NCBI RefSeq assembly: GCF_003932715.1
Contig: NZ_CP020700.1
Coordinates: forward strand, 7,152,501 to 7,216,500
DNA: 64,000 bases
Direction of reading: 5' to 3'
From: Streptomyces tsukubensis
GTDB lineage: Bacteria; Actinomycetota; Actinomycetes; Streptomycetales; Streptomycetaceae
Positions within the stretch are counted from its first letter, which is position 1. Each line of letters begins with the position of its first letter. Below are positions 52,593-64,000 of the stretch, piece by piece. The translations under genes and the position numbers were made by a program. The notes beneath the pieces are model-generated. The model was not told the origin of the DNA, did no database searches, and worked only from the letters and a program-made list of their open reading frames with translations.

Positions 52593-53072
52593 TCAGGTGA
52601 GGGTCAGCCGCGGCGCCTCGGCCCGCGGATCGACCGGCGCGCCCCCGCGGGCCAGCCGCTCCGTGAGGTCCCGGGCCCAGGCCGTCAGCCCCGACACGTC
52701 CACGTCGTACGGATCCCCGTAACCCGCGATCCGCTCCGCCCCGCGCTGCAGCAGCGTCACCCCGCCCTGAGCATTGCCGCGCGCCGCGTGCGTCAGCCCC
52801 ACGGCGAGCTGGGCCAGCCCCTGCCAGAGATCGCGCTCCGGCTCGGGCCGCGACTTCCAGGCATCCTCGAACACCTCGTGCGCGTGGAACGGCTTCCCCT
52901 CGTCCAGCAGCTTCTGCGCCGTCTCCAGCGTCTCGCGCGGCGCCCGCACCACCCCTTCGTCCTGGCGCGCCACCCCCGCCCGCCCGTACGGCAACGGCCG
53001 CCCCAAACCGTCCCGGGGCCGCGCACTGCGGGCGCGCCCTTCACTGTCCCGGTCTCTCGGTGCCCTGTCCAC
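52593..53072 (-). CDS. DUF309 domain-containing protein
   Basis: 159 aa. FHAHEVFEDAWK (about 57-68) is the defining H-x-x-x-E motif, and DLWQGLAQLAVGLTHAARGN continues the helical bundle. The function is unknown; the conserved His/Glu pattern suggests a metal or small-ligand site. The GTG start at 53072 gives the opening MDRAPRDRDSEGRARSARPR, characteristic of this family in Streptomyces. It lies 62 bp upstream of cobF on the same strand and 116 bp from the divergent tRNA. Confidence 0.82.
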   Translation of the reverse strand: MDRAPRDRDSEGRARSARPRDGLGRPLPYGRAGVARQDEGVVRAPRETLETAQKLLDEGKPFHAHEVFEDAWKSRPEPERDLWQGLAQLAVGLTHAARGNAQGGVTLLQRGAERIAGYGDPYDVDVSGLTAWARDLTERLARGGAPVDPRAEAPRLTLT

Positions 53073-53188
53073 GTTCGGAATTCTCCCCGAAACCCCCACC
53101 CGCCCGCAGGCCACCGGCCGTACCCACCCGCCGAGTGGGGTAAAGTCTTCCCTGCAAGCCCGGCCGCAACGGCGGCGGGGCCAGCGAA

Positions 53189-53262
<74 letters not shown>

Positions 53263-53283
53263 CTTGTGTTTTCGCAGGTCGCA

Positions 53284-53315
53284 GGCGGTATCGGAGTAAT
53301 CCGGTGCCGCCTTTT
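53284..53315 (+). terminator. tRNA-Pro terminator
   Basis: An 11-bp stem including two G-U wobbles (53284-53294 with 53301-53311), a 6-nt loop, and TTTT at 53312-53315. This is a canonical intrinsic terminator 22 bp after the tRNA. Confidence 0.8.
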
Positions 53316-53814
53316 CGCTGTTCTTGGGGACCAGTTGGGGACCACGAGGTCCAGGTGTGTTGTCCCGGGACGTTGGTGACATGCGAGCGGGCGGCACCGG
53401 CCGTCGGCCGCGAGGTGGATCTTCGTCGTCAGTCCGCCGCGGGACCGTCCGAGGGCATGACGGGCGGCTCGCCGGCCGGGGCCCGTTGTGACGGACCCCG
53501 GCGGCGTGCTGGTGGGCACGGACGATCGTGGAGTCCACCGAGACGACCCGGTCCAGGTACTCCGCGTCGGCCTCGGCGAGGAGCGCGGCGAAGACACGCT
53601 CCCACGTGCCGTCGAGCGCCCACATCCGCAGCCTGCTGCGGGCGCCTTTCCACGAACCGCGCCGTTCGGGCAGGTCCGTCCACGGAGTGCCCGTCCGGTA
53701 CTTGAAGGCGATCGCGTCGATCACCTGCCGACGGTCACGCCACCCGCCACCCCGCCGGGGTGTCCGGTCCGGCAGCAGCGGTTCGATTCGCGCCCACTGC
53801 GCGCGTCGGACCAC
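53316..53814 (-). pseudogene. decayed IS5-type transposase fused to possible integrase tail
   Basis: On the minus strand, one frame reads AQWARIEPLLPDRTPRRGG, RQVIDAIAFKYRTGTPWTDLP and VVSVDSTIVRAHQHAAG, the N-terminal half of an IS5/IS427-group DDE transposase with the first catalytic Asp. The reading then shifts frame to HALGRSRGGLTTKIHLAADG and RCRPLA near 53385-53420, after which similarity stops; the DDE second half is missing. Some of the frame change could be the group's programmed frameshift, but the loss of the C-terminal half shows it is dead. From about 53385 to the tRNA the frame reads HLDLVVPNWSPRTAKRR, which resembles the last residues of actinobacterial tyrosine recombinases, so an integrase 3' end may remain. 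The family's usual N terminus is also damaged near 53814. Confidence 0.7.
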
Positions 53815-53854: not shown

Positions 53855-54802
53855 CTACCGTTGGATCACCATCGTCCGGCTGCTGCGGAAGCCCTCGGTG
53901 CGGAAGGTTCCGGCAGCATCGCAGGGGCTGCGGGAGAGCAGGACCAGGTCGAGGCTCGGGGCCGCATCGGGCCAGGTCGGGAGCGCGGTGGCAGTGGGGT
54001 CCACCGTCACCACGAGGGACGGGTCGGACAACGCACGGAGGCTCACGAAGCGATCAGTGGTGACACCCCCCAGATGCGGGTCGAGCATCGCGGACGGGAC
54101 TGCGGAGAAGCCCAGTCGGCTTTTGAAATTGAAGAGTCCGGGCTGGACCACGTGCCCGAAGAGCGACGGATCGTTGCCCAGGGACGCGTACGACAGGCCG
54201 TGCTCACGGGCGAAGCGGAACGCCTCCGCGTAGGCGGCCCGCATCACCCGGCTCGCCCGCGCGCTCGGCGCGGCCGCGGAGAAGCGCATCTGGAGTACCG
54301 ACGCCCCGGGTCGGATCCACCAGATCGAGGTGACGACCGCCTTCCGGCCGTCGTAGACGAAGACGCTCATGTACTCGTCGCCGTTGTCGAGGAGACGGGT
54401 GCGGAATCTGCGGGCGTAGTCCTTGCCGCGCGCCATACCCGCGAGCTGCGCGTCGTACACGGGCAGGAACTCCTCGAAGACCTCCTCGGTCAGTCCGGAC
54501 CGGACGCTCAGGCGCAGCCCTCCCTCCTGCACGGCTCGGCGGCCCAGTCGGATGTTCCGCCGCTCGGTGCCCGATACCCGGGCGGTGAACTCCTCCTCGG
54601 ATGCGCCGAGTGGTGCCAGCCAGTTGACCCAGCGGGGACGGGTCAGAAATCCGAGGCGGTCCAGGACGGCGGGATCCGGATCCTCGTTGTCGTGGAGCCG
54701 GACCACGTCGACGGAGAGTTCCGCCACCGCGCGGGCATCGTGCTCGACGTCGTCACGCGTGACCTTCGCGATGACGAGGTCGTCCTGCTCAATGATCTCC
54801 AT
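53855..54802 (-). CDS. FemAB/BioF2-like GNAT acyltransferase
   Basis: 315 aa. The C-terminal GNAT-type core (about 110-270) shows VFVYDGRKAVVTSIWWIRPG, in parts, RASRVMRAAYAEAFRFAREHG and YASLGNDPSLFGHVVQPGLFNFKSRLGF, in parts, the pattern of the BioF2-like/FemAB group that moves an acyl or aminoacyl group to an amine. In this cluster it could acylate an N-hydroxylated or free amine of the product, or add an amino acid. It is the last gene of the leftward biosynthetic run, 39 bp after the MFS gene, and abuts the transposase remnant. Confidence 0.7.
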   Translation of the reverse strand: MEIIEQDDLVIAKVTRDDVEHDARAVAELSVDVVRLHDNEDPDPAVLDRLGFLTRPRWVNWLAPLGASEEEFTARVSGTERRNIRLGRRAVQEGGLRLSVRSGLTEEVFEEFLPVYDAQLAGMARGKDYARRFRTRLLDNGDEYMSVFVYDGRKAVVTSIWWIRPGASVLQMRFSAAAPSARASRVMRAAYAEAFRFAREHGLSYASLGNDPSLFGHVVQPGLFNFKSRLGFSAVPSAMLDPHLGGVTTDRFVSLRALSDPSLVVTVDPTATALPTWPDAAPSLDLVLLSRSPCDAAGTFRTEGFRSSRTMVIQR

Positions 54803-54841: not shown

Positions 54842-56041
54842 TCAGCCCGTTGCGGCCGCCTCCGGCTCCTTCAGCCGATTGCCGTGCCGGGTGTAGACCG
54901 CCCAGATCACGACGGCGAGGGCCCAGATGGCCAGCGACGGCAGCCAGAACCGGTATCCACCGAGATGGCTGGCCCAGGCGAAGAGGAAGCCCGACAGCGG
55001 CACCGCACCGGTGATGAACATGCGGATGGTCGCGTTGGCCCGGCCGGCGACCTCCACGGGAATCGTCTCCTGCCGGTAGGTGATGGAGGCGACGTTGCTC
55101 CCTGCGACGGCAAAGCACTCGATCATGAAGCCGGCGACCTGGACGGGTGTCCACGGCGTCGCGACCAGGGTCAGAGAGGCGAGCCCCACCACCTGCCAAG
55201 CAAGAATTCGCCGCTCGGGGCCCCATCCGGGGAGGATCCTCGGCGCCAGGCGGCTCGCCACCGCACCCGACAACAGGCCGATCGCCATCAGCACCGAGAT
55301 GAGGGTGACGTTGATCTGCCGGTCGGCGAACTGCGTGATCAGTGCGGGCTCCAGCTGCCCGATCGCGATGTTGGTCATCGACATGGTGATCACGAGCCAG
55401 AGGATCTCCGGTTTGGCGACCCAGCGGAATCCGATGGTCAGGTCCCGGCGCAGAGCCGTCTTCTCCTCGTTGCCCGGCACCGGAGGCAGCAGCGCGGCGA
55501 CAGATCCGGCGCCCAGATAGAGCAGGGCTATGCACAGGGACGTGGCGGCGGGCCCCAGAAGCGAGAAGGCCGTGCCCCCGGCCAACAGCCCGATCACCTT
55601 GGAGAACTCAATGGCGGAGTTCAGCTTGGCAACTGCCAGAGCCCGGGCCGGCGCGCTCACCAAGGCGGGGATGAGCACGAACTGCCCGGTGATCGAGCTT
55701 GCGACACCGCCGAGACCCGACACCAGCACCAGCGCGGAGACGCTGACCGGATGGGAGATGAAGACGGCCAGCAGCACCAGGCACACCGCCTGCTGGACCT
55801 GGGCCAGAACAAAAATGCGACGCCTGTCGAACCGGTCGATGAGGGAGCCGATGACGGGTGAGGCGACGTAGCTGACGCCGCGCATCGCGAACGAGACCAG
55901 CGACATGGCTACCGAATCGGTCTCCGCCAGGACAGCGAGCGGGATCACGATGCCGAGTTGCCAGTCCGCGACCTTTGACAGCACGGTCGACCCGAGGAGG
56001 ACCCGGATTACCCGGGTGTCCGCCGGTGTCTGCGGGGTCAT
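54842..56041 (-). CDS. MFS transporter, enterobactin exporter (EntS)-like
   Basis: 399 aa with 12 membrane helices. PVIGSLIDRFDRRRIFVLAQ, in parts, is the loop 2-3 motif, and VASITYRQETIPVEVAGRANA, in parts, recalls the EntS/MFS_3 group that exports siderophores and peptides. It probably exports the product of this cluster. ATG 56041 has GGAG in its leader. A 585-bp non-coding gap separates it from the N-monooxygenase, so it may have its own promoter. Confidence 0.8.
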   Translation of the reverse strand: MTPQTPADTRVIRVLLGSTVLSKVADWQLGIVIPLAVLAETDSVAMSLVSFAMRGVSYVASPVIGSLIDRFDRRRIFVLAQVQQAVCLVLLAVFISHPVSVSALVLVSGLGGVASSITGQFVLIPALVSAPARALAVAKLNSAIEFSKVIGLLAGGTAFSLLGPAATSLCIALLYLGAGSVAALLPPVPGNEEKTALRRDLTIGFRWVAKPEILWLVITMSMTNIAIGQLEPALITQFADRQINVTLISVLMAIGLLSGAVASRLAPRILPGWGPERRILAWQVVGLASLTLVATPWTPVQVAGFMIECFAVAGSNVASITYRQETIPVEVAGRANATIRMFITGAVPLSGFLFAWASHLGGYRFWLPSLAIWALAVVIWAVYTRHGNRLKEPEAAATG

Positions 56042-56626
56042 GCGGTGCTCCAGTTGTCGTGTGGTGAGAGACCCCGGCCGGCGCTCATATGCCGTAAGGC
56101 CCGCCCTCACAGGCTCTTTGACGGAGAAACAGGTGGAAGTAATGCATCGTCAGTAGGCCTCGGATGCGGTGTGGGTCCTCCCTGCAGCCGCTGCCTTCCC
56201 GGATGGCAGGGTCGGAGACGGCAGGACGACCGCCCGGTTCTCGACGGGATCGTGCGGTGTTCCGGATCTGTAGGGCCAACCGGCCCCGGCCCACGCATGT
56301 CAAACGTGGTGGAACGGTGCTTCGGCCTTCCCACGGCGTGACGGGGCCGTTGTCACCCGCTGGGGCGTGTCCGCAGAGTGGCGCCGTCCGTCCGAGGGAC
56401 GGGGCCTGCGGCTCCCGCAGCTCTGCGGGAGAGTACTCGGGACATCCCGACAACGCAGGGGGAGTACCCCCACCCGCCCCGAGGGGCACAGGGGGAGAGT
56501 GAGCGTGCCGGGCGTCGCGGGGCAGGCGGGACTGTGCGGACACTGGTACAGAGCCCGCCGGCTTTTTGCAGGCGGCCGTCTTCCTCACTGCCCTCCCGAT
56601 GTGGGCGTGACATCTGTAGACAACCT
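56042..56626 (-). promoter_or_regulatory. long non-coding gap rich in inverted repeats
   Basis: 585 bp without a credible gene, between two same-strand genes. Around 56380-56470 inverted repeats are dense: CCGTCC/GGGACGG; a perfect 9-bp stem CTCCCGCAG-CT-CTGCGGGAG; then two related palindromic pieces, GAGAGTACTCGGG and GGGGGAGTACCCCC. The first two hairpins could end transcription of the N-monooxygenase gene, and the remainder probably holds a promoter for the MFS and acyltransferase genes. A structured leader or small RNA is possible. No iron-box-like palindrome was found. Confidence 0.4.
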
Positions 56627-57895
56627 CTAGGAAAGCGACCACGAGGCCAAACCGGAAAGTCGGCCGAGACGGTACCGCTCGCCCCCGACGATGGAGTTGA
56701 CGATGCGTGCGCTGCGCCACGACGCCAGGCTGAGATTGGGGTCCGCGATGCCGTGTGACTCCTCGGCGAAGTTCTGGACGTAGATCTGCAGGCCCTCGGG
56801 TCCGTCCCACTCCAGTGAGTAGTCCTCGCGGATCTCGAAGCGCTGGCCGTCCACCGTGACCCGCTCGCGCAGTGGTTCCAGGTAATCCGGGAAGTCGGCG
56901 CGGTAGCCGGTGCAGAAGATGACGATGTCCTCTGTTCGCCGTGCCGTGCGTCCACGGTCGTCGTCGTGCAGGGTCACGGTCAGCGCATCGCCGTCGCGGG
57001 CGAGGTCGAGCACGCGGTGGTTGGCGACGATCCGGTGCTCCAGCAGGCCGTCGGCGACCGTGCCGAGCTGGTAGAGGCGCCGGTAGATCCGCCGGAGCAG
57101 GTCCTCGGAGATGCCGTCGCTGGACAGGCGCTGCTGTTTCAGCAGATGGGAGCGCCGCTCGGCATCCAGGGAGTGGAAGTGCTCGACATAGGAGGGCGTG
57201 TACCAGTCGTTCGTGAAGGGCGAGTCGTCGATCGGCAGGAAGCCGGCGCGGCTGGAGACCCAGGTGAGGGACTGGGGCAGAGCCGCGTCGTCGGCGAGCA
57301 GGTAGTTGACCACCTCCGCGCCGCTCTGGCCCGCGCCCACCACCATGACGCGCCTGCCGGCGGTGGCCGGCCGACACGTCATGATGTCGCTGGAGTGCAA
57401 CACCTGGTCGCCCTGCAGGACAGCCGCGAAGTCGGGCAGGTACGGCGTCCGGCCGGAGCCGAGGGCCAGCGTGGCCGTCTGCGCGACTTCCCCGCTCTCG
57501 CACTCGATCTCGAAGCTGCCCTCGTTCAGCGAAACCGATTTCACCTTGTGCCCCCAGCGGACCGACGGGAGCTGCCGGGCCACCCAGCGGTAGTACTGCT
57601 CGAACTCCTGACGCGAGCTGCTCATCCCGTTCGCGACCGCAGACCGGAAGATCCGGCCCTCGTGCACCAGGAAGTTGAGATAGGTGAAGGGGTTGGTCGG
57701 GTCCACGAGGGTGACAAGGTCCTTGAGGAAAGAGACCTGGATCTCCGCCTCCGGCAGCATGAGTCCCGGATGCCACTGGAACTGCGGCTTGGCGTCGTAG
57801 AACCGTGCGGTGAGCCCGTCGACGGGCTGCGTGAGCGCCGCCAGACTCAGGTTGAAGGGCCCCACTCCGACCCCGATAACGTCGAACCTCTCCAT
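56627..57895 (-). CDS. L-lysine/L-ornithine N-monooxygenase
   Basis: 422 aa, SidA/IucD/PvdA family. DVIGVGVGPFNLSLAAL binds FAD, PGLMLPEAEIQVSFLKDLVTL is the substrate/flavin region, VMVVGAGQSGAEVVNYLL binds NADPH, and FCTGYRADFPDYL is the C-terminal A-T-G-Y-type motif. It hydroxylates the side-chain amine of lysine or ornithine, or a similar diamine, the first step to hydroxamates, nitrones and N-N bonded compounds. ATG 57895 has GAGGAAT upstream. It lies 84 bp after the kinase-like gene. Confidence 0.92.
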   Translation of the reverse strand: MERFDVIGVGVGPFNLSLAALTQPVDGLTARFYDAKPQFQWHPGLMLPEAEIQVSFLKDLVTLVDPTNPFTYLNFLVHEGRIFRSAVANGMSSSRQEFEQYYRWVARQLPSVRWGHKVKSVSLNEGSFEIECESGEVAQTATLALGSGRTPYLPDFAAVLQGDQVLHSSDIMTCRPATAGRRVMVVGAGQSGAEVVNYLLADDAALPQSLTWVSSRAGFLPIDDSPFTNDWYTPSYVEHFHSLDAERRSHLLKQQRLSSDGISEDLLRRIYRRLYQLGTVADGLLEHRIVANHRVLDLARDGDALTVTLHDDDRGRTARRTEDIVIFCTGYRADFPDYLEPLRERVTVDGQRFEIREDYSLEWDGPEGLQIYVQNFAEESHGIADPNLSLASWRSARIVNSIVGGERYRLGRLSGLASWSLS

Positions 57896-57979
57896 CGAGG
57901 ATTCCTCTCTGCGCGCGCCCGAGCTGCTCGACCGCCTCGCGTGGTCAGTGGTGGTCACGGTTGCTGTTGGGTCAGCCGG

Positions 57980-58852
57980 CTACCCCTGGCCGAAGTACCG
58001 GGCCAGTTTCGGGTGGGAGCACAACGCGGCCAGGCCGCGTTCCGTGTTGGCTTCCACCCCCGCGTGGTCGACTTGGTGGACGGTCCAGCCCAGGGAATCC
58101 GCGTACTCCCGGAAGAGCTTCGCCGTCTCGTCCTGCATACGGCTGAACGACTCCTCGCTGCGCTCGCCGGCCGGTCCGTAGTCCTCCAGCGCGCCTACGG
58201 CGCCGTTCTGGGCGGTGCGCCAGCGATAGGCGTAGGCGGAGGGGCCGTCGACGAGGATGCCGATGTCGGGGCGCAACAGTGACGAGCTGAAGATCACGTC
58301 GAGCAGTCCGCGGACAGTGCCGGCGAGCGAACCCACAGCTGCAGCCGCCGGGTCGCCCTCCTCCCTGCCCTGGAGCGCGAGCCGGTCGGCGACCGCGAGT
58401 TCCTTCAGGACGTGCTTGATGGGGTACGACTCCTGGACCACGACAGCGCCCCGGGCCACGGCTTGGCGGGTCACCTCGGATGCGAGGATGATGTTGCCCG
58501 CGATCTCCACAAAGGCCGCCGCGAGTGCTCCGGAGGCCCGGTTGTGCATGACGGGCTCGGCCGCGAGGTGGCGCTCCCACTGCTGCGCGTCCCAGACGTC
58601 GTAGCCGCGGGGGATGTCCAGCGGCTGCCCTTCCCGCAGCCCGCCGCCGTACAGGGTACGGAAGGACTCCAGCCACAGCTGCTGAAGGGGAACGGCCGGC
58701 CACGGGGTGGCGGTCTCCTCCAAGGCCGAACGCCAGGTGACCGTAACCACCTCCGCTCCGGCAGCCCGTGCGCGCTCCTCGAACGCCCGGCACAGGGTGC
58801 TCTTGCCGATCCCGTCGATGCCCAGGAAGGCGACGGTGAGTCCTTGGTTCAT
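57980..58852 (-). CDS. thymidylate-kinase-like P-loop protein
   Basis: 290 aa. FLGIDGIGKSTLCRAFEERA, in parts, is a P-loop (G-x-D-G-x-G-K-S-T) of the nucleotide/deoxynucleoside kinase type. VVVQESYPIKHVLKELAVADR resembles the region that carries the catalytic acidic residue and lid of dTMP kinases. It is longer than a housekeeping dTMP kinase (about 210 aa), and its middle 60 residues (WERHLAAEPVMHNRAS and neighbours) are unusual. In a biosynthetic cluster it may phosphorylate the product or an intermediate rather than dTMP. Confidence 0.72.
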   Translation of the reverse strand: MNQGLTVAFLGIDGIGKSTLCRAFEERARAAGAEVVTVTWRSALEETATPWPAVPLQQLWLESFRTLYGGGLREGQPLDIPRGYDVWDAQQWERHLAAEPVMHNRASGALAAAFVEIAGNIILASEVTRQAVARGAVVVQESYPIKHVLKELAVADRLALQGREEGDPAAAAVGSLAGTVRGLLDVIFSSSLLRPDIGILVDGPSAYAYRWRTAQNGAVGALEDYGPAGERSEESFSRMQDETAKLFREYADSLGWTVHQVDHAGVEANTERGLAALCSHPKLARYFGQG

Positions 58853-58925
58853 GGTTCTTGCCCTTCTCGGTCTTTCCTTCGTGCTGTCCGGGTGTTTGTG
58901 GCGCGCGGTGTGCTGTGTGGGCCGC

Positions 58926-60179
58926 TCAGCCCAGGTCGTCCAGACGCCGGGTGATCTCCTCGACGTAGCAACGCAGTCCCTCGATGCGGGAGGCGTCAAG
59001 ACCTTTGCGGACGAGCCCGGCGGCCGCAGCCCGGCTGTCGGCGGTGGCCAGTGCCTGGGCGAGGATCAGTTCGTAGCTCATCGGCCGGCCCGGGTCGAGT
59101 GAGCTGATCCAGCGCAGGCCCTCGACGTCGGCCAGGTCGAATCGAGTCAGTGCGCCCAGATCGGGAAAGTCGCCCAGCTCCCCGGGGTGGAGAAACAGCC
59201 GAGCTTCCATGCAGTGCCGGGAACGGTCCACGGGCAGTGTGTCCGGGGCGATGGCCTCCCCCCGGGCGATGCGCAGCTGGAGCTCGATCAGATCGGTGCC
59301 GGTCTGCCGTTCGGACATCCGGTAGGCCAGCGGGAGTCTGCCGTTGACCTCCAGAAAGTAGTAGCCGTCCGGCCCGGCGATGAACTCGACGGTCATGACG
59401 TTGCGCAGACCGAACGCGAGGGCGATACGGGCCGCGTCGACACGCATCGCCGCCAGAGTGGCGGCTCCGACGCCCGTGGCCGGAGCGACCTCCAGCAGCT
59501 TGAGCCCGTGCGAGATCAGCAAGCTCTCGCGCTCGCCGAGCGGAATCACGGTGCCGTGGTGGTCCACAGCCAACGAGACGCCGACGACCCGGTTGCCAGG
59601 AACGTACCGCTCCAGGTACCAGGCGGTGTCGGCGCCCCCATCGGCCAGCGCGTCCGCAACGTCCGCATACGAGTGCACGATGCGCACGCCCAGACCGCCT
59701 TCGCCGAAGTCCGGCTTGAGGACGGCGGGGAGGCCGATGTCCGCCAGCCGGGCGTGCACGTCCGCAAGGCCACGCGCGGTGGCGTGGGGCAGCACGGATA
59801 CGCCGATGTCCCGGGCCGCCCGGACGGCTGCAGCCTTGCTGCCGGCCAAGCGCAACGCGGCGGAAGGCGGGCCCACGTAGGCGACGTTCCTGGCTTCCAG
59901 GCCCTCGGCGAAGTCGGCGTCCTCTGCGAGCGCGCCGTAGCCCGGGTGGACACAGTCGACTCCGCTGCGGTCGACGGCCGCGAGAACCTGCTCGGCCGAG
60001 TCGTAGGTCTGCGCCTGCCCCCGGCCGGGAATCAGGACTGTCCGGTCGGCGTGGGTCAGGTGGATGTTCTGGGTGTCGTCGGCCGCAGCCAGTGCCGTCG
60101 TCCGGTAGCCGAGCCGGCGGGAGACCTGTGCTGCGTGGACGGCCACCGCTGCACGGTTGGCGATGAGGATGCTGCGCAT
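58926..60179 (-). CDS. stand-alone ATP-grasp protein, biotin-carboxylase-like
   Basis: 417 aa. ILIANRAAVAVHAAQVSRRLG is the biotin-carboxylase N-domain opening, VHPGYGALAEDADFAEGLE follows it, LKPDFGEGGLGVRIV is the ATP-grasp glycine loop, and VEFIAGPDGYYFLEVNGRL holds the Glu/Asn metal ligands and the Arg. Where carboxylases read E-M-N-T-R-I-Q-V-E-H, this reads EVNGRLPLAY: the Q-V and the general-base Glu are lost. There is no biotin carrier domain and no carboxyltransferase gene nearby. It is therefore probably an ATP-dependent ligase on an amino or carboxyl group. It lies 57 bp after the NRPS gene. Confidence 0.75.
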   Translation of the reverse strand: MRSILIANRAAVAVHAAQVSRRLGYRTTALAAADDTQNIHLTHADRTVLIPGRGQAQTYDSAEQVLAAVDRSGVDCVHPGYGALAEDADFAEGLEARNVAYVGPPSAALRLAGSKAAAVRAARDIGVSVLPHATARGLADVHARLADIGLPAVLKPDFGEGGLGVRIVHSYADVADALADGGADTAWYLERYVPGNRVVGVSLAVDHHGTVIPLGERESLLISHGLKLLEVAPATGVGAATLAAMRVDAARIALAFGLRNVMTVEFIAGPDGYYFLEVNGRLPLAYRMSERQTGTDLIELQLRIARGEAIAPDTLPVDRSRHCMEARLFLHPGELGDFPDLGALTRFDLADVEGLRWISSLDPGRPMSYELILAQALATADSRAAAAGLVRKGLDASRIEGLRCYVEEITRRLDDLG

Positions 60180-60236: not shown

Positions 60237-63200
60237 TCATCCGGACAGCCGGGACATCCAGCGCTCGCACGCCGCCGCGAGGCCACGTATCTGCTCCTCG
60301 CGGTCTACGTCCGCGCTGTACTGCCACGTCAGCCGCAGGAAGTCGGGTTCCGCCCCGGCGTAGACCTTGATCCGGTAGGGCTGGGTACGGTTGGGCGTCA
60401 TCTCGGTGCCCACTGCGGTGGCACGGACCCGGAACGGCGGTTCCAGGTCGTGTTCCCCCATGCGTGAGCCGAGGAAGTTCAGGTAGATATCGGCTGCCGG
60501 CAGTGCAGCGAGGCTGCCGCGGACCTCGTCCAGGTCGTGGAGGTAGCGCAGGGCTCCCCACGTCTGCTCCATGTCCCGGATGTCGGTGATCTGCTCGCGC
60601 AGCACCTGCGCCGTCTGCCGGTCGCTTGCTTCCTCGGGCAGTTCGAGCAGGTAGGGGGCGATGCTGTTGAGCCATCCGACCGCGTTCGCGAAACCGGGGC
60701 CTCCGGTGGGATCGGTGCGGCCGTGCCGGCACACATCGACGGCACCGACGCGACTGTTGGTCGCGTCGGCGGCAGCCGCGGCGAGGGCCGAAAGCAGCAG
60801 CTCCTCGACGCGGGCGGCGCCGGGGGCCGCGGGTCGTGGGATCAGCGTCTGGAGGGACTTGATGTGACTGAGGTGCATGCTGCCGTCCGGGCGGTCCGAG
60901 GGGAGTGGACGCAGAGACTCCCACCGCAGGGCCCGCCAGCGACGCAGGAACAATGCGCCCAGTGGGCCGTTCACCAAACGGCGGAGGACCGCGGCGTGGT
61001 CGGACCAGGACGAGGTGCCTGCCAGGGGGTGGACGACGCCGGCGGCGATCTCCCGGTAGGCCGTGACCAGTTCCCGCGCAATGACCTTCAGGGACATGCC
61101 GTCTGCCACGAGGTGGTGGAAGACCAGGAGCAGTACATCGCCGTCGGCGGAAGAAAAGTAGGCCGCCCTCCAGACGGGCCCGTCCCGCAGGCTCAGCGAT
61201 TGGTGCAGGCGGTCTGCCTCCTTCAGGAAAGCCTGGTCTCGGTCCCCGGGTCCGGGGCCGGAGAGATCGTGCCGGGACAGCGGTACGTCCGTCGGCCCCG
61301 AGTACGGCTCGGTCCTGATGCGGTTGCCCACCAGCCTCAGCCGTAGCGCGGAGTGGCGCCGGGCCAGGGCCGCCAGTGCCCCGGCGAGCGCTTCCCGGTC
61401 CACCGAGGCGTCGACATCGAGGACCAGCGAAACGTTGTAGTGGTCGCGGTCCTGGTAGTCCCATCCCAGGAAGCGATGCTGGGCGGGGGACAGGTCCGGT
61501 CGAGCTACTGTCTCCGGGGCGGGTACGGAAGCCGGCTCGAAGGCGCGTTCGGCCAGCTCGCCGAAGGTCCCGGTGGTGTACACGTCCGCAGGCCGGATTC
61601 GCAGACCGAGGTCGCCTGCCCGGATCGCCACTTCCATGGCACTGAGGCTGTCGCCCCCCAGGTCGAAAAAGTTGTCCTCCGGGTTGATCCGGGTGACGCC
61701 GAGGACGTCTCGCCAGATTCCGGCGAGGCCGTCACCTCCGTGCGGTCCGGGCCGGGCGAGCCTGCTGAGCGCGCGGCGGTCCGTCTTGCCGTTCGGGCTC
61801 AGCGGGATCTCCCGGACGGCGACGATGCGGTGCGGCACGGAGTAGGCGGGCAGGGCGCTGCCCAGCAGTGACCTCAGTTCGCCGGTGTCGACGGCGGCGC
61901 CCTCGGGCGGTACGACATACCCGACCAGCCGCAGCGCGTGGTGGCCCTGCTCGGCCACGACAGCGGCGGCGCGTACACCACCGAGCCGGAGGAGATGATC
62001 CTCGACCTCGGCCGGTTCCACCCGGTGGCCGCGGATCTTGACCTGGTCGTCGGTGCGACCCTCGTAGGCGATGCGGCCGTCGGAACGACGCCGGCCGAGG
62101 TCACCGGTGCGGTAGAGGCGTTCGCCGGGCCGGAAGGGATCGGGGATGAAGCGCTGGGCGGTCAGTTCGGGCCGGTCGAGGTAGCCGATCGCCAGACCCG
62201 GGCCGCCGATGTGGATCTCGCCGGTCTCGTCATCCGCGCAGCGACGCCCGTCCCGGAGGATCTCGACGACGGTGCGCGCAGCGGGGCGTCCGATGGTGAT
62301 GTCATCAGGCCGGACCTTCTCGGACAGCGAGTAGACAGAGGTCTCGGTGGGCCCGTAGATGTTCCACACAGCCCTGGCCTGGTCGAGTGACCTGGCCAGA
62401 GCAGGCGTCAGTGCCTCGCCGCCGGAGACGATCCGCAGGTGGCGGGGCGGTTGCCAGCCGTATGAGGTCAGTGCGGTGAAGAGGGACGGAGTGCCCATGA
62501 GGAAGGTGGCACCGCGTTCGGCGATGGCCTCGTCGAGCAGCCCGGGGTCGCGGGCGACGGCACGATCGACCACATGCACGGTGCCGCCGCAGATCAGCGG
62601 CAGGAGGATCTCCAGCTGGGCGAAGTCGAAAGAGAACGGGGCGAGCGCGAGCACCGAGTCCTCTTCGGTGAAGCAGAAGTCGTCCCGGCTGTACTGCAGG
62701 ATGTCGGCGATGCCGCGGTGGGTGAGCACTGCTCCTTTGGGGGTGCCGGTAGAGCCCGAGGTGTAGATGACGAAAGCGGCATGGTGGGCTTCGGACGTGC
62801 GGTCGAGGGCGGCGGTCCGCTGTCCGTCGCTGCCGGGCCGCTCGTCCGTGTACACGAGACGATGGTCGCCGGGGGGCGATGGAGGCTCGATGCCACGTCT
62901 GGTCAGCACGGCTGCCGGTCGGGCATCGTCGATCATGAAGCGCAGCCGGTCCGCGGGGTACTCGGGATCGAGGGGGAGGTAGGCGCAGCCGATCGTCAGG
63001 GCTGCGAGCAGACCCGCGACGAGGTCGCGGGAGCGGTCCAGGTGGATGGCGACCCGGTCGCCGGGACGTACCCCTGAAGCTTCCAGCAGCACTCCCAGCT
63101 CTTCGGCGCGAGCCATGAGCTGGCGGTAGGTCCAGGAGCCGTCCTGGTCTCGGACGGCGATTCGGCCGGGCACCCGGAGGGCCTGTTCACCCACCAGGGC

Positions 63201-64000
63201 GTGGACGGAATCGCCGCCCGGACGGCCGTGGCCCGCATCCTGTGCGGTGCTGGTCTGTTCGGTGGCGGTGAAGCACCGCTGGTACAGCGCGAGTTCCGCA
63301 TCCACGCACGCGAGGATCGTTTCGCTGCGCTTGAAGCCGTGCCGTTCCCCGGCGAAGACCCGGTGCAGGTACGGTGCCCTGTCGGGGCGCACACCTGACA
63401 GGAAGAGCTCCGCCTGGGCGGGCGGGCAGATCGGGTCGGCGTCGCCCTGCAGCAGGACGAACGGTCGTTCGACGCGGGCTGCGGCCAGGGCGGGCGACCG
63501 CTCCGCATAGCGCTGCGCGGTCTCGGGCCACGGACCGATGAGGGAGTCGAGATAGAAGGCCTCGAAGCCGCCGTTCTGCGACTCTCGCCAGGTTGCCGGG
63601 TCCAGAACGGGGTAGAGCAGCACGGCGCAGCAGTAGATGTCCTGTGTGGTGAGGGACACGGCTGCGGTCCAGCCACCGGCGCTCGCGCCGCGGATGGCGA
63701 GCCGAGCCGGGTCGGCGGTGCCCTCGGCCGCCAGGGCGCGGGCCACGGCAGCACAGTCGTCGACGTCGGCGATGCCCCAGGAGTGCCTCAGCCGGTTGCG
63801 GTACTCCCGGCCGTACCCGGTCGACCCGCTGTAATCGACGCCGACCACGCCGATCCCTCGGCTGGTGAGGTAGGCGATCTGCAGATCGTAGGCCCGGGGG
63901 AATCGCCCGGTGGGGCCGCTGTGTGCGAAGACGACGAAGGGGGGGCTCTCACCGGGCAGTCCGTTGTGGTCGGGATTGCGCGGCAGGAAGACCGTGGCAT
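60237..64000 (-). CDS. S9 peptidase / adenylation / carrier / epimerization-like NRPS fusion (start beyond window)
   Basis: At least 1,254 aa in one frame, still open at the right edge. From the edge to about 63240 it is a prolyl-oligopeptidase-type hydrolase: GVDYSGSTGYGREYR; AIRGASAGGW with the nucleophile Ser (codon at 63683-63681); LLQGDADPI with Asp; GERHGF with His. From about 63200 to 61760 it is an adenylation domain (YTSGSTGTPKGAV, NIYGPTETSVYS, YRTGDL, KIRGHRVEPAEVE, PLSPNGKTDRR). FFDLGGDSLSAME is the carrier domain, with the phosphopantetheine Ser at 61649-61647. From about 61480 to the stop it is a condensation-superfamily domain with HHLVADGMS; VGWLNSIAP, WGALRYL and YLNFLGS fit an epimerization domain better than a condensation one. 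No thioesterase or second module is visible. Confidence 0.85.
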   Translation of the reverse strand, partial: ATVFLPRNPDHNGLPGESPPFVVFAHSGPTGRFPRAYDLQIAYLTSRGIGVVGVDYSGSTGYGREYRNRLRHSWGIADVDDCAAVARALAAEGTADPARLAIRGASAGGWTAAVSLTTQDIYCCAVLLYPVLDPATWRESQNGGFEAFYLDSLIGPWPETAQRYAERSPALAAARVERPFVLLQGDADPICPPAQAELFLSGVRPDRAPYLHRVFAGERHGFKRSETILACVDAELALYQRCFTATEQTSTAQDAGHGRPGGDSVHALVGEQALRVPGRIAVRDQDGSWTYRQLMARAEELGVLLEASGVRPGDRVAIHLDRSRDLVAGLLAALTIGCAYLPLDPEYPADRLRFMIDDARPAAVLTRRGIEPPSPPGDHRLVYTDERPGSDGQRTAALDRTSEAHHAAFVIYTSGSTGTPKGAVLTHRGIADILQYSRDDFCFTEEDSVLALAPFSFDFAQLEILLPLICGGTVHVVDRAVARDPGLLDEAIAERGATFLMGTPSLFTALTSYGWQPPRHLRIVSGGEALTPALARSLDQARAVWNIYGPTETSVYSLSEKVRPDDITIGRPAARTVVEILRDGRRCADDETGEIHIGGPGLAIGYLDRPELTAQRFIPDPFRPGERLYRTGDLGRRRSDGRIAYEGRTDDQVKIRGHRVEPAEVEDHLLRLGGVRAAAVVAEQGHHALRLVGYVVPPEGAAVDTGELRSLLGSALPAYSVPHRIVAVREIPLSPNGKTDRRALSRLARPGPHGGDGLAGIWRDVLGVTRINPEDNFFDLGGDSLSAMEVAIRAGDLGLRIRPADVYTTGTFGELAERAFEPASVPAPETVARPDLSPAQHRFLGWDYQDRDHYNVSLVLDVDASVDREALAGALAALARRHSALRLRLVGNRIRTEPYSGPTDVPLSRHDLSGPGPGDRDQAFLKEADRLHQSLSLRDGPVWRAAYFSSADGDVLLLVFHHLVADGMSLKVIARELVTAYREIAAGVVHPLAGTSSWSDHAAVLRRLVNGPLGALFLRRWRALRWESLRPLPSDRPDGSMHLSHIKSLQTLIPRPAAPGAARVEELLLSALAAAAADATNSRVGAVDVCRHGRTDPTGGPGFANAVGWLNSIAPYLLELPEEASDRQTAQVLREQITDIRDMEQTWGALRYLHDLDEVRGSLAALPAADIYLNFLGSRMGEHDLEPPFRVRATAVGTEMTPNRTQPYRIKVYAGAEPDFLRLTWQYSADVDREEQIRGLAAACERWMSRLSG

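Follow-up and report, generated by a model that had tools for sequence, protein, structure and literature searches.

A gene in a 64,000-nucleotide stretch of the Streptomyces tsukubensis genome (the window; positions 7,152,501-7,216,500 of the forward strand of NZ_CP020700.1) encodes a peptidase of family S9 joined in frame to a nonribosomal peptide synthetase (NRPS) module, which consists of an adenylation (A) domain, a carrier (T) domain and an altered epimerization (E) domain, here called E*. This S9-A-T-E* architecture is genuine, and it is rare. Our tentative reading, to which we give somewhat less than an even chance, is that the protein is a single-module synthetase with a built-in aminopeptidase, dedicated to a phosphonate pathway yet to be characterised, and that it aminoacylates a phosphonate intermediate from which the S9 domain cleaves or transfers the aminoacyl group in cis.

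The synthetase is encoded on the minus strand by an open reading frame (ORF) of 1660 residues from its ATG (whole gene L009:738-5720:-, genome C1:7212737-7217719). The C-terminal 1253 of the 1660 residues lie inside the window, where the frame is open across 60237-63998 to the edge. An earlier note on this DNA had described an S9 domain with a Ser-Asp-His triad that runs in frame into an A-carrier-E-like module, and this description is borne out by Pfam and by alignment of the triad (Table 1). Extending the sequence past position 64000, as the note had proposed, revealed that the S9 part is complete, with a propeller of ~400 residues mostly beyond the window edge. Pfam also places AMP-binding at residues 678-1014 (266 bits), AMP-binding_C at 1071-1145 (37), PP-binding at 1165-1225 (47.9) and Condensation at 1243-1653 (96), all above cut-off, and the A domain matches TIGR01733 with 383.8 bits against a cut-off of 317.4. 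The A domain and a carrier with its phosphopantetheine Ser together make an NRPS module; E* is the last domain and S9 is N-terminal. No thioesterase domain was found in the gene by a Pfam scan of the full protein. The specificity positions of the A domain, anchored on its motifs and taken to be those of GrsA, read D-F-L-M-I-S-I-V-Y-K in the window copy; the two relatives described below have DFLMISIIFK and DFLMVSIIFK.

That the fusion is genuine comes from two other species. ORFs of 1823 residues in S. aureocirculatus NRRL ISP-5386 (L042) and of 1729 residues in S. alboflavus NRRL B-2373 (L043) have the same S9-A-T-E* order in a single frame; both were found by scanning genome contigs with exact peptide patterns from the last domain of one protein, which detects close relatives only. 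The window protein is 66-68% identical to them in the propeller, 74% in the S9 hydrolase, 72.5% in A, 62% in T and 60% in E*. Ratios of nonsynonymous to synonymous divergence (dN/dS, Nei-Gojobori) are 0.16-0.44 for all domains in all pairs among the three fused genes, and 0.16-0.31 for the catalytic half of S9; pairs that include the window copy have a high dS (0.58-0.96), so that their ratios are rough, and the comparison of the two relatives with each other is more reliable. Judged by these values, the fused gene is under purifying selection in three species. The junction (residues 652-672) contains no stop and no frame shift. The earlier note had allowed for a frameshift near 63220-63300 that would separate two genes; since the same in-frame fusion is seen in two independent assemblies, this and an assembly artefact are ruled out.

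The layout is also rare. In a genus sample, 380 of 392 genomes match a query that spans the junction (residues 400-760), but among the matches listed only the window genome matches over the whole query, while the others end at or shortly after the end of S9. That search scored the five best candidates per genome, and the best-scoring part of the match list was examined. One listed match, from genome G105, extends slightly beyond S9; it is an S9-S66 fusion. A shorter junction query (residues 600-760) was matched over its whole length by two positive controls (205-211 bits), and at E 1e-22 it found no fusion beyond the window genome in 394 class genomes or 396 phylum genomes; three other genomes of the class sample matched it in the A part only. 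The genus, class and phylum samples overlap, and each includes the window genome. None of 2830 matching plasmid records covers 80% of the synthetase. The author of the earlier note knew of no synthetase with an N-terminal S9 domain, and our searches, which covered open-access papers and the genome and plasmid samples above, gave no description of one and no example beyond the three Streptomyces species.

The S9 part appears to be a whole and competent puromycin-hydrolase-type peptidase. Its full-length fold, including the N-terminal beta-propeller, was matched when folds of S9 and E* were compared (VIA-align over Foldseek's best 1000), and the nearest solved structures are puromycin-hydrolysing enzymes (3azo/3azp and the Mycobacterium tuberculosis relative 7c72). 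The triad S513/D595/H627 is invariant in 36 of 36 S9 rows of the alignment; the Ser that is mutated in PDB 3azp, which is 3azo with S511A, aligns with S513. In a tree of these 36 domains, the three fused copies form one group (100/100), and a long inner branch separates them from the 33 unfused domains, among which are the unfused copies of the three fusion genomes. The tree is rooted at its midpoint only; 35 unfused loci were tried (L002 and L003 gave no match), and 29 of the 33 kept are best-scoring matches of the genus search, so that the sample is non-random. All 33 unfused proteins stop 8-27 residues past the S9 domain. A recent origin by duplication from the other S9 of the window genome was rejected, since that copy is 51% identical and belongs to a separate clade across the long branch. 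The unfused S9s are at least 95% constant at 279 columns; the window copy departs from them at 58 of these, and at 25 columns all three fused copies share one identical change, including G434S in the HGGP motif and G512A beside the catalytic Ser. The fused S9 thus looks old and altered, and because its triad is retained while neighbouring residues have changed, the alignment suggests a changed substrate.

A second sort of fusion involving a puromycin-hydrolase-like S9 is the G105 protein, from the same genus (L097:1431-4643). Its S9, which shares 52% identity with that of the window protein, continues in frame into an S66 domain of the LD-carboxypeptidase type (PF02016, 117.6 bits; PF17676, 101.4 bits), and there is no A domain.

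The earlier note had called the last domain epimerization-like. The epimerase fold and the HHxxxDG motif are indeed present, but the Glu of the ExHGR motif, which we take to be the catalytic residue of epimerization domains, is replaced. This position is Cys in four of four E* rows and Glu in all 19 ordinary E rows, which come from a set of 30 other matches. Because Cys1497 takes the place of this Glu, we rejected a working epimerase: D-amino-acid formation is unlikely, and E* probably joins or releases rather than epimerizes.

The genes around the synthetase point to a phosphonate pathway. Upstream on the same strand are genes for an iron-type alcohol dehydrogenase (Fe-ADH), phosphonopyruvate decarboxylase, phosphoenolpyruvate (PEP) mutase and a TauD oxygenase, with gaps of 18, -50, -4 and 161 bases. 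The ATP-grasp, kinase-like, flavoenzyme, MFS and GNAT genes of Table 1 follow downstream. The decarboxylase matches TIGR03297 with 348 bits (cut-off 312.5). The PEP mutase has the motif EDKxxxxxNS, presumably diagnostic of this enzyme, as EDKVYPKVNS, and the motif is kept in all four clusters compared (the three fusion clusters and a fourth, described below). When 16 genes of the region were used as queries, 13 were present in each of the two related clusters in matching gene order, so that the whole cluster, and not the gene alone, is conserved across three species; absent were the flavoenzyme gene (Table 1), a methylase gene at the flank and a NUDIX gene, the place of which lies outside the sequence covered in S. 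aureocirculatus. PF13714 matches six times in the S. aureocirculatus genome; the PEP-mutase motif occurs in the cluster copy alone. We take NRRL ISP-5386 to be the same strain as DSM 40386. According to a 2025 paper, S. aureocirculatus DSM 40386T gave phosphonate signals in 31P nuclear magnetic resonance and was counted within likely novel producers (PMC12723261). The main text of that paper does not use the term 'peptidase', and the fusion synthetase is not described in the parts covered.

E* accompanies phosphonate genes beyond the fusion, as judged from gene content. At E 1e-50, an E* relative was found in one other genome of 394 (family sample); it belongs to a different genus and is 33% identical. 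Its cluster encodes PEP mutase, the decarboxylase and an aminotransferase; A-T-C forms one protein there, and T-E*, which has the same Cys, forms another. No S9 match was found in the 38 of 56 kb searched of the contig. The S9 domain would then be an addition, or have been lost in the fourth cluster. Beside its phosphonate NRPS genes, this cluster also has pyruvate-dehydrogenase E1 alpha, E1 beta and E2-like genes (L054:11017-14115) and a methionyl-tRNA-synthetase-like gene (L054:3494-4903), which are perhaps spare copies of a drug target.

How could the module work in such a pathway? In argolaphos biosynthesis, the first three genes lead from PEP via phosphonopyruvate and phosphonoacetaldehyde to 2-hydroxyethylphosphonate (PMC8976061). 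In the cluster studied here, the A domain would load an amino acid onto T, and E*, through its HHxxxDG site, could transfer the aminoacyl group to a soluble derivative of 2-hydroxyethylphosphonate. As no aminotransferase was found among the scanned neighbouring genes, the amino acid might be attached as an ester or an amide; in valinophos biosynthesis, the ATP-grasp enzyme VlpF esterifies valine onto a phosphonate alcohol (PMC12723261). The ATP-grasp, GNAT and ArgG-like proteins may extend or decorate the product. By cleaving or transferring the aminoacyl group in cis, S9 could finish the product or strip a temporary protecting group. A bolder version, which we hold to be doubtful, is a new NRPS logic: an aminopeptidase acting as in-cis aminoacyl transferase or deprotecting enzyme would be paired with a former epimerase (Glu to Cys) that forms bonds to phosphonate acceptors, and one chain would add, remove or relay an amino acid on a C-P intermediate.

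Several points weigh against our proposal. The PEP mutase scores 281.5 bits against TIGR02320, below the cut-off of 319.55, and Fe-ADH scores 177.3 bits against the phosphonoacetaldehyde reductase model TIGR03405, below 423.7. The A-domain code matches no specificity known to us. The exchange of Glu for Cys alone is no proof that epimerization is lost, and S9 is not obligatory for E* chemistry because the fourth cluster has E* without a fused S9 and no S9 match in the 38 kb searched. The order of steps is guesswork, and the target of S9 might be the carrier-bound thioester; alternatively, S9 might have a detoxifying or a structural role.

The first of these roles would make S9 an in-line thioesterase or aminoacyl transferase: the thioester would be passed to Ser513, followed by hydrolysis (editing) or by transfer to a phosphonate acceptor (release). 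S9 shares its chain with A and T in a gene without a thioesterase domain, the aminoacyl-S-T would offer the free alpha-amine that suits an aminopeptidase, and a C-terminal DD-peptidase (S12) on the S. avermitilis NRPS NP_824819.1 has been published (PMC2605481). However, the usual release domains are placed C-terminal to the last carrier, whereas S9 is N-terminal and E*, which already offers a release function, comes last. In S9 enzymes the active site lies in a closed cavity between propeller and hydrolase domain, and this position should impede a carrier protein, whose arm would have to reach in. Because the propeller closes this cavity, an aminoacylated soluble intermediate is, by analogy, a likelier substrate than the carrier-bound thioester, and we consider action on the thioester rather unlikely.

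Less probable still is self-protection, where S9 would deaminoacylate and inactivate the finished or re-imported phosphonate, as puromycin hydrolase does with puromycin. Its closest solved structures do hydrolyse puromycin, and the G105 fusion joins an S9 of the same family to S66, a family that includes the resistance peptidase MccF. A stand-alone S9 peptidase, Zmn22, is known in an antibiotic cluster (PMC3547906). A product-destroying enzyme fused to the synthetase would, however, be self-defeating, and peptidases usually activate rather than inactivate peptide phosphonates (PMC13302981). An inactive S9 that serves as a docking or dimerization scaffold is improbable: it could explain the altered constant columns, including those beside the catalytic Ser and in HGGP, but not the intact triad in all three fused copies and the low dN/dS of the catalytic half. 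That an NRPS gene was joined to a housekeeping peptidase by chance or by misassembly is very improbable: although S9 raw material is common in the genus, the fusion recurs with synteny in two independent assemblies, its S9 branch is old, and the catalytic residues are conserved.

We compared the protein with known systems. The initiation modules TycA (tyrocidine) and GrsA (gramicidin S) have the same A-T-E order and fold; here Glu is replaced by Cys, an S9 domain is added at the N-terminus, and the module is paired with a phosphonate pathway; the neighbouring genes scanned contained no further NRPS module. The puromycin hydrolases (3azo/3azp; 7c72) are single enzymes, whereas the S9 here continues into A-T-E*, forms a long branch of its own and has changed residues near the active site. 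Zmn22 of zeamine biosynthesis is likewise an S9-family peptidase tied to an NRPS product, but it is a separate protein with a proposed role in late trimming (PMC3547906). S. avermitilis NP_824819.1 also carries a peptidase-family domain on an NRPS, but this is S12 DD-peptidase-like and C-terminal (PMC2605481). In the parts of these papers covered, a stand-alone S9 in an NRPS cluster and S12 at an NRPS C-terminus are thus already in print. The argolaphos (alp) cluster of Streptomyces monomycini shares PEP mutase, phosphonopyruvate decarboxylase, an Fe-type reductase, ATP-grasp, GNAT, NUDIX and MFS proteins (PMC8976061). Its gene table, as covered, has in addition an HEPD-type enzyme, a dehydrogenase, an aminotransferase and a nucleotidyltransferase, and lists neither NRPS nor S9; because the gene sets differ, we rejected an argolaphos-type cluster (PMC8976061). 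An anti-phage role was rejected as there is no PADLOC match.

If S9 acts on the product of its module, editing, release or unmasking of an intermediate would take place inside one synthetase, and the protein would offer a natural model for linking aminoacylation to deprotection. S9-A-T-E* with the Cys form of E* also provides a signature for mining phosphonate clusters; one such cluster is in a reported phosphonate producer.

Table 1. Positions in the window of the synthetase gene, its parts and its neighbours
Feature	Position	Strand	Basis or remark
S9-A-T-E* synthetase coding sequence	60237..64000	-	ORF and Pfam; runs 1219 bp past the window to the ATG
Peptidase_S9 Pfam match	63267..63890	-	residues 444-651; 128.1 bits, cut-off 22.6
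Ser513 codon	63681-63683	-	
Asp595 codon	63435-63437	-	
His627 codon	63339-63341	-	
S9-to-A linker, in frame	63204..63266	-	residues 652-672; poorly conserved across species
Adenylation domain	61764..63203	-	residues 673-1152
Carrier (T) domain	61536..61742	-	residues 1160-1228; GGDS 1188-1191, Ser1191
E* domain	60240..61508	-	residues 1238-1660; epimerase fold; HHxxxDG at residues 1368-1374; Cys1497 at 60729-60731
Biotin-carboxylase-like ATP-grasp protein, conserved neighbour	58926..60179	-	Pfam
P-loop kinase-like protein, conserved neighbour	57980..58999	-	77-84% identical in relatives; sole Pfam match AAA_16, below cut-off
Lys/Orn N-monooxygenase-type flavoenzyme	56627..57958	-	among the three fusion clusters, in the window genome only
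MFS transporter, conserved neighbour	54842..56110	-	Pfam
GNAT protein, conserved neighbour	53855..54802	-	PF13480, 25 bits, cut-off 22

The flavoenzyme gene lies between the kinase and MFS genes; its product scores 265.8 bits against TIGR04439 (cut-off 700), and its best homologs in the two related genomes share 29-38% identity with it and are encoded on different contigs from the clusters. Its presence suggests an N-hydroxylated congener in the window genome. The GNAT protein is a possible aminoacyl-tRNA-dependent ligase by analogy with AlpF of argolaphos. A divergent gene set encodes a protein without Pfam match, an ArgG-like protein, a small protein without match, a second ATP-grasp-like protein and a NUDIX protein. 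The ArgG-like, argininosuccinate-synthase-related protein (L009:11814-13037, plus strand, outside the window) matches NF038212 with 580.8 bits (cut-off 425) and is kept in all three fusion clusters at 73% identity. No scanned neighbour reaches a lyase cut-off; matches of the ATP-grasp-like proteins to NF002563 are confined to its first part, and the second of these proteins, which has no Pfam match, matches weakly (50.9 bits, cut-off 625).

Both related clusters have a phosphoglycerate mutase (iPGM) gene beside TauD (L042:2-1396 and L043:374-1903; TIGR01307, 405.5 bits for L042), which was not seen at the TauD-adjoining place in the window genome and is possibly a source of PEP or a resistant copy of a target. 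The low end of the cluster adjoins a tRNA-Pro (ggg) gene at window positions 53189-53263, inside the frame of an IS4/5-family transposase piece (53041-53814; PF13340, 75.9 bits), an arrangement that resembles the edge of a mobile island.

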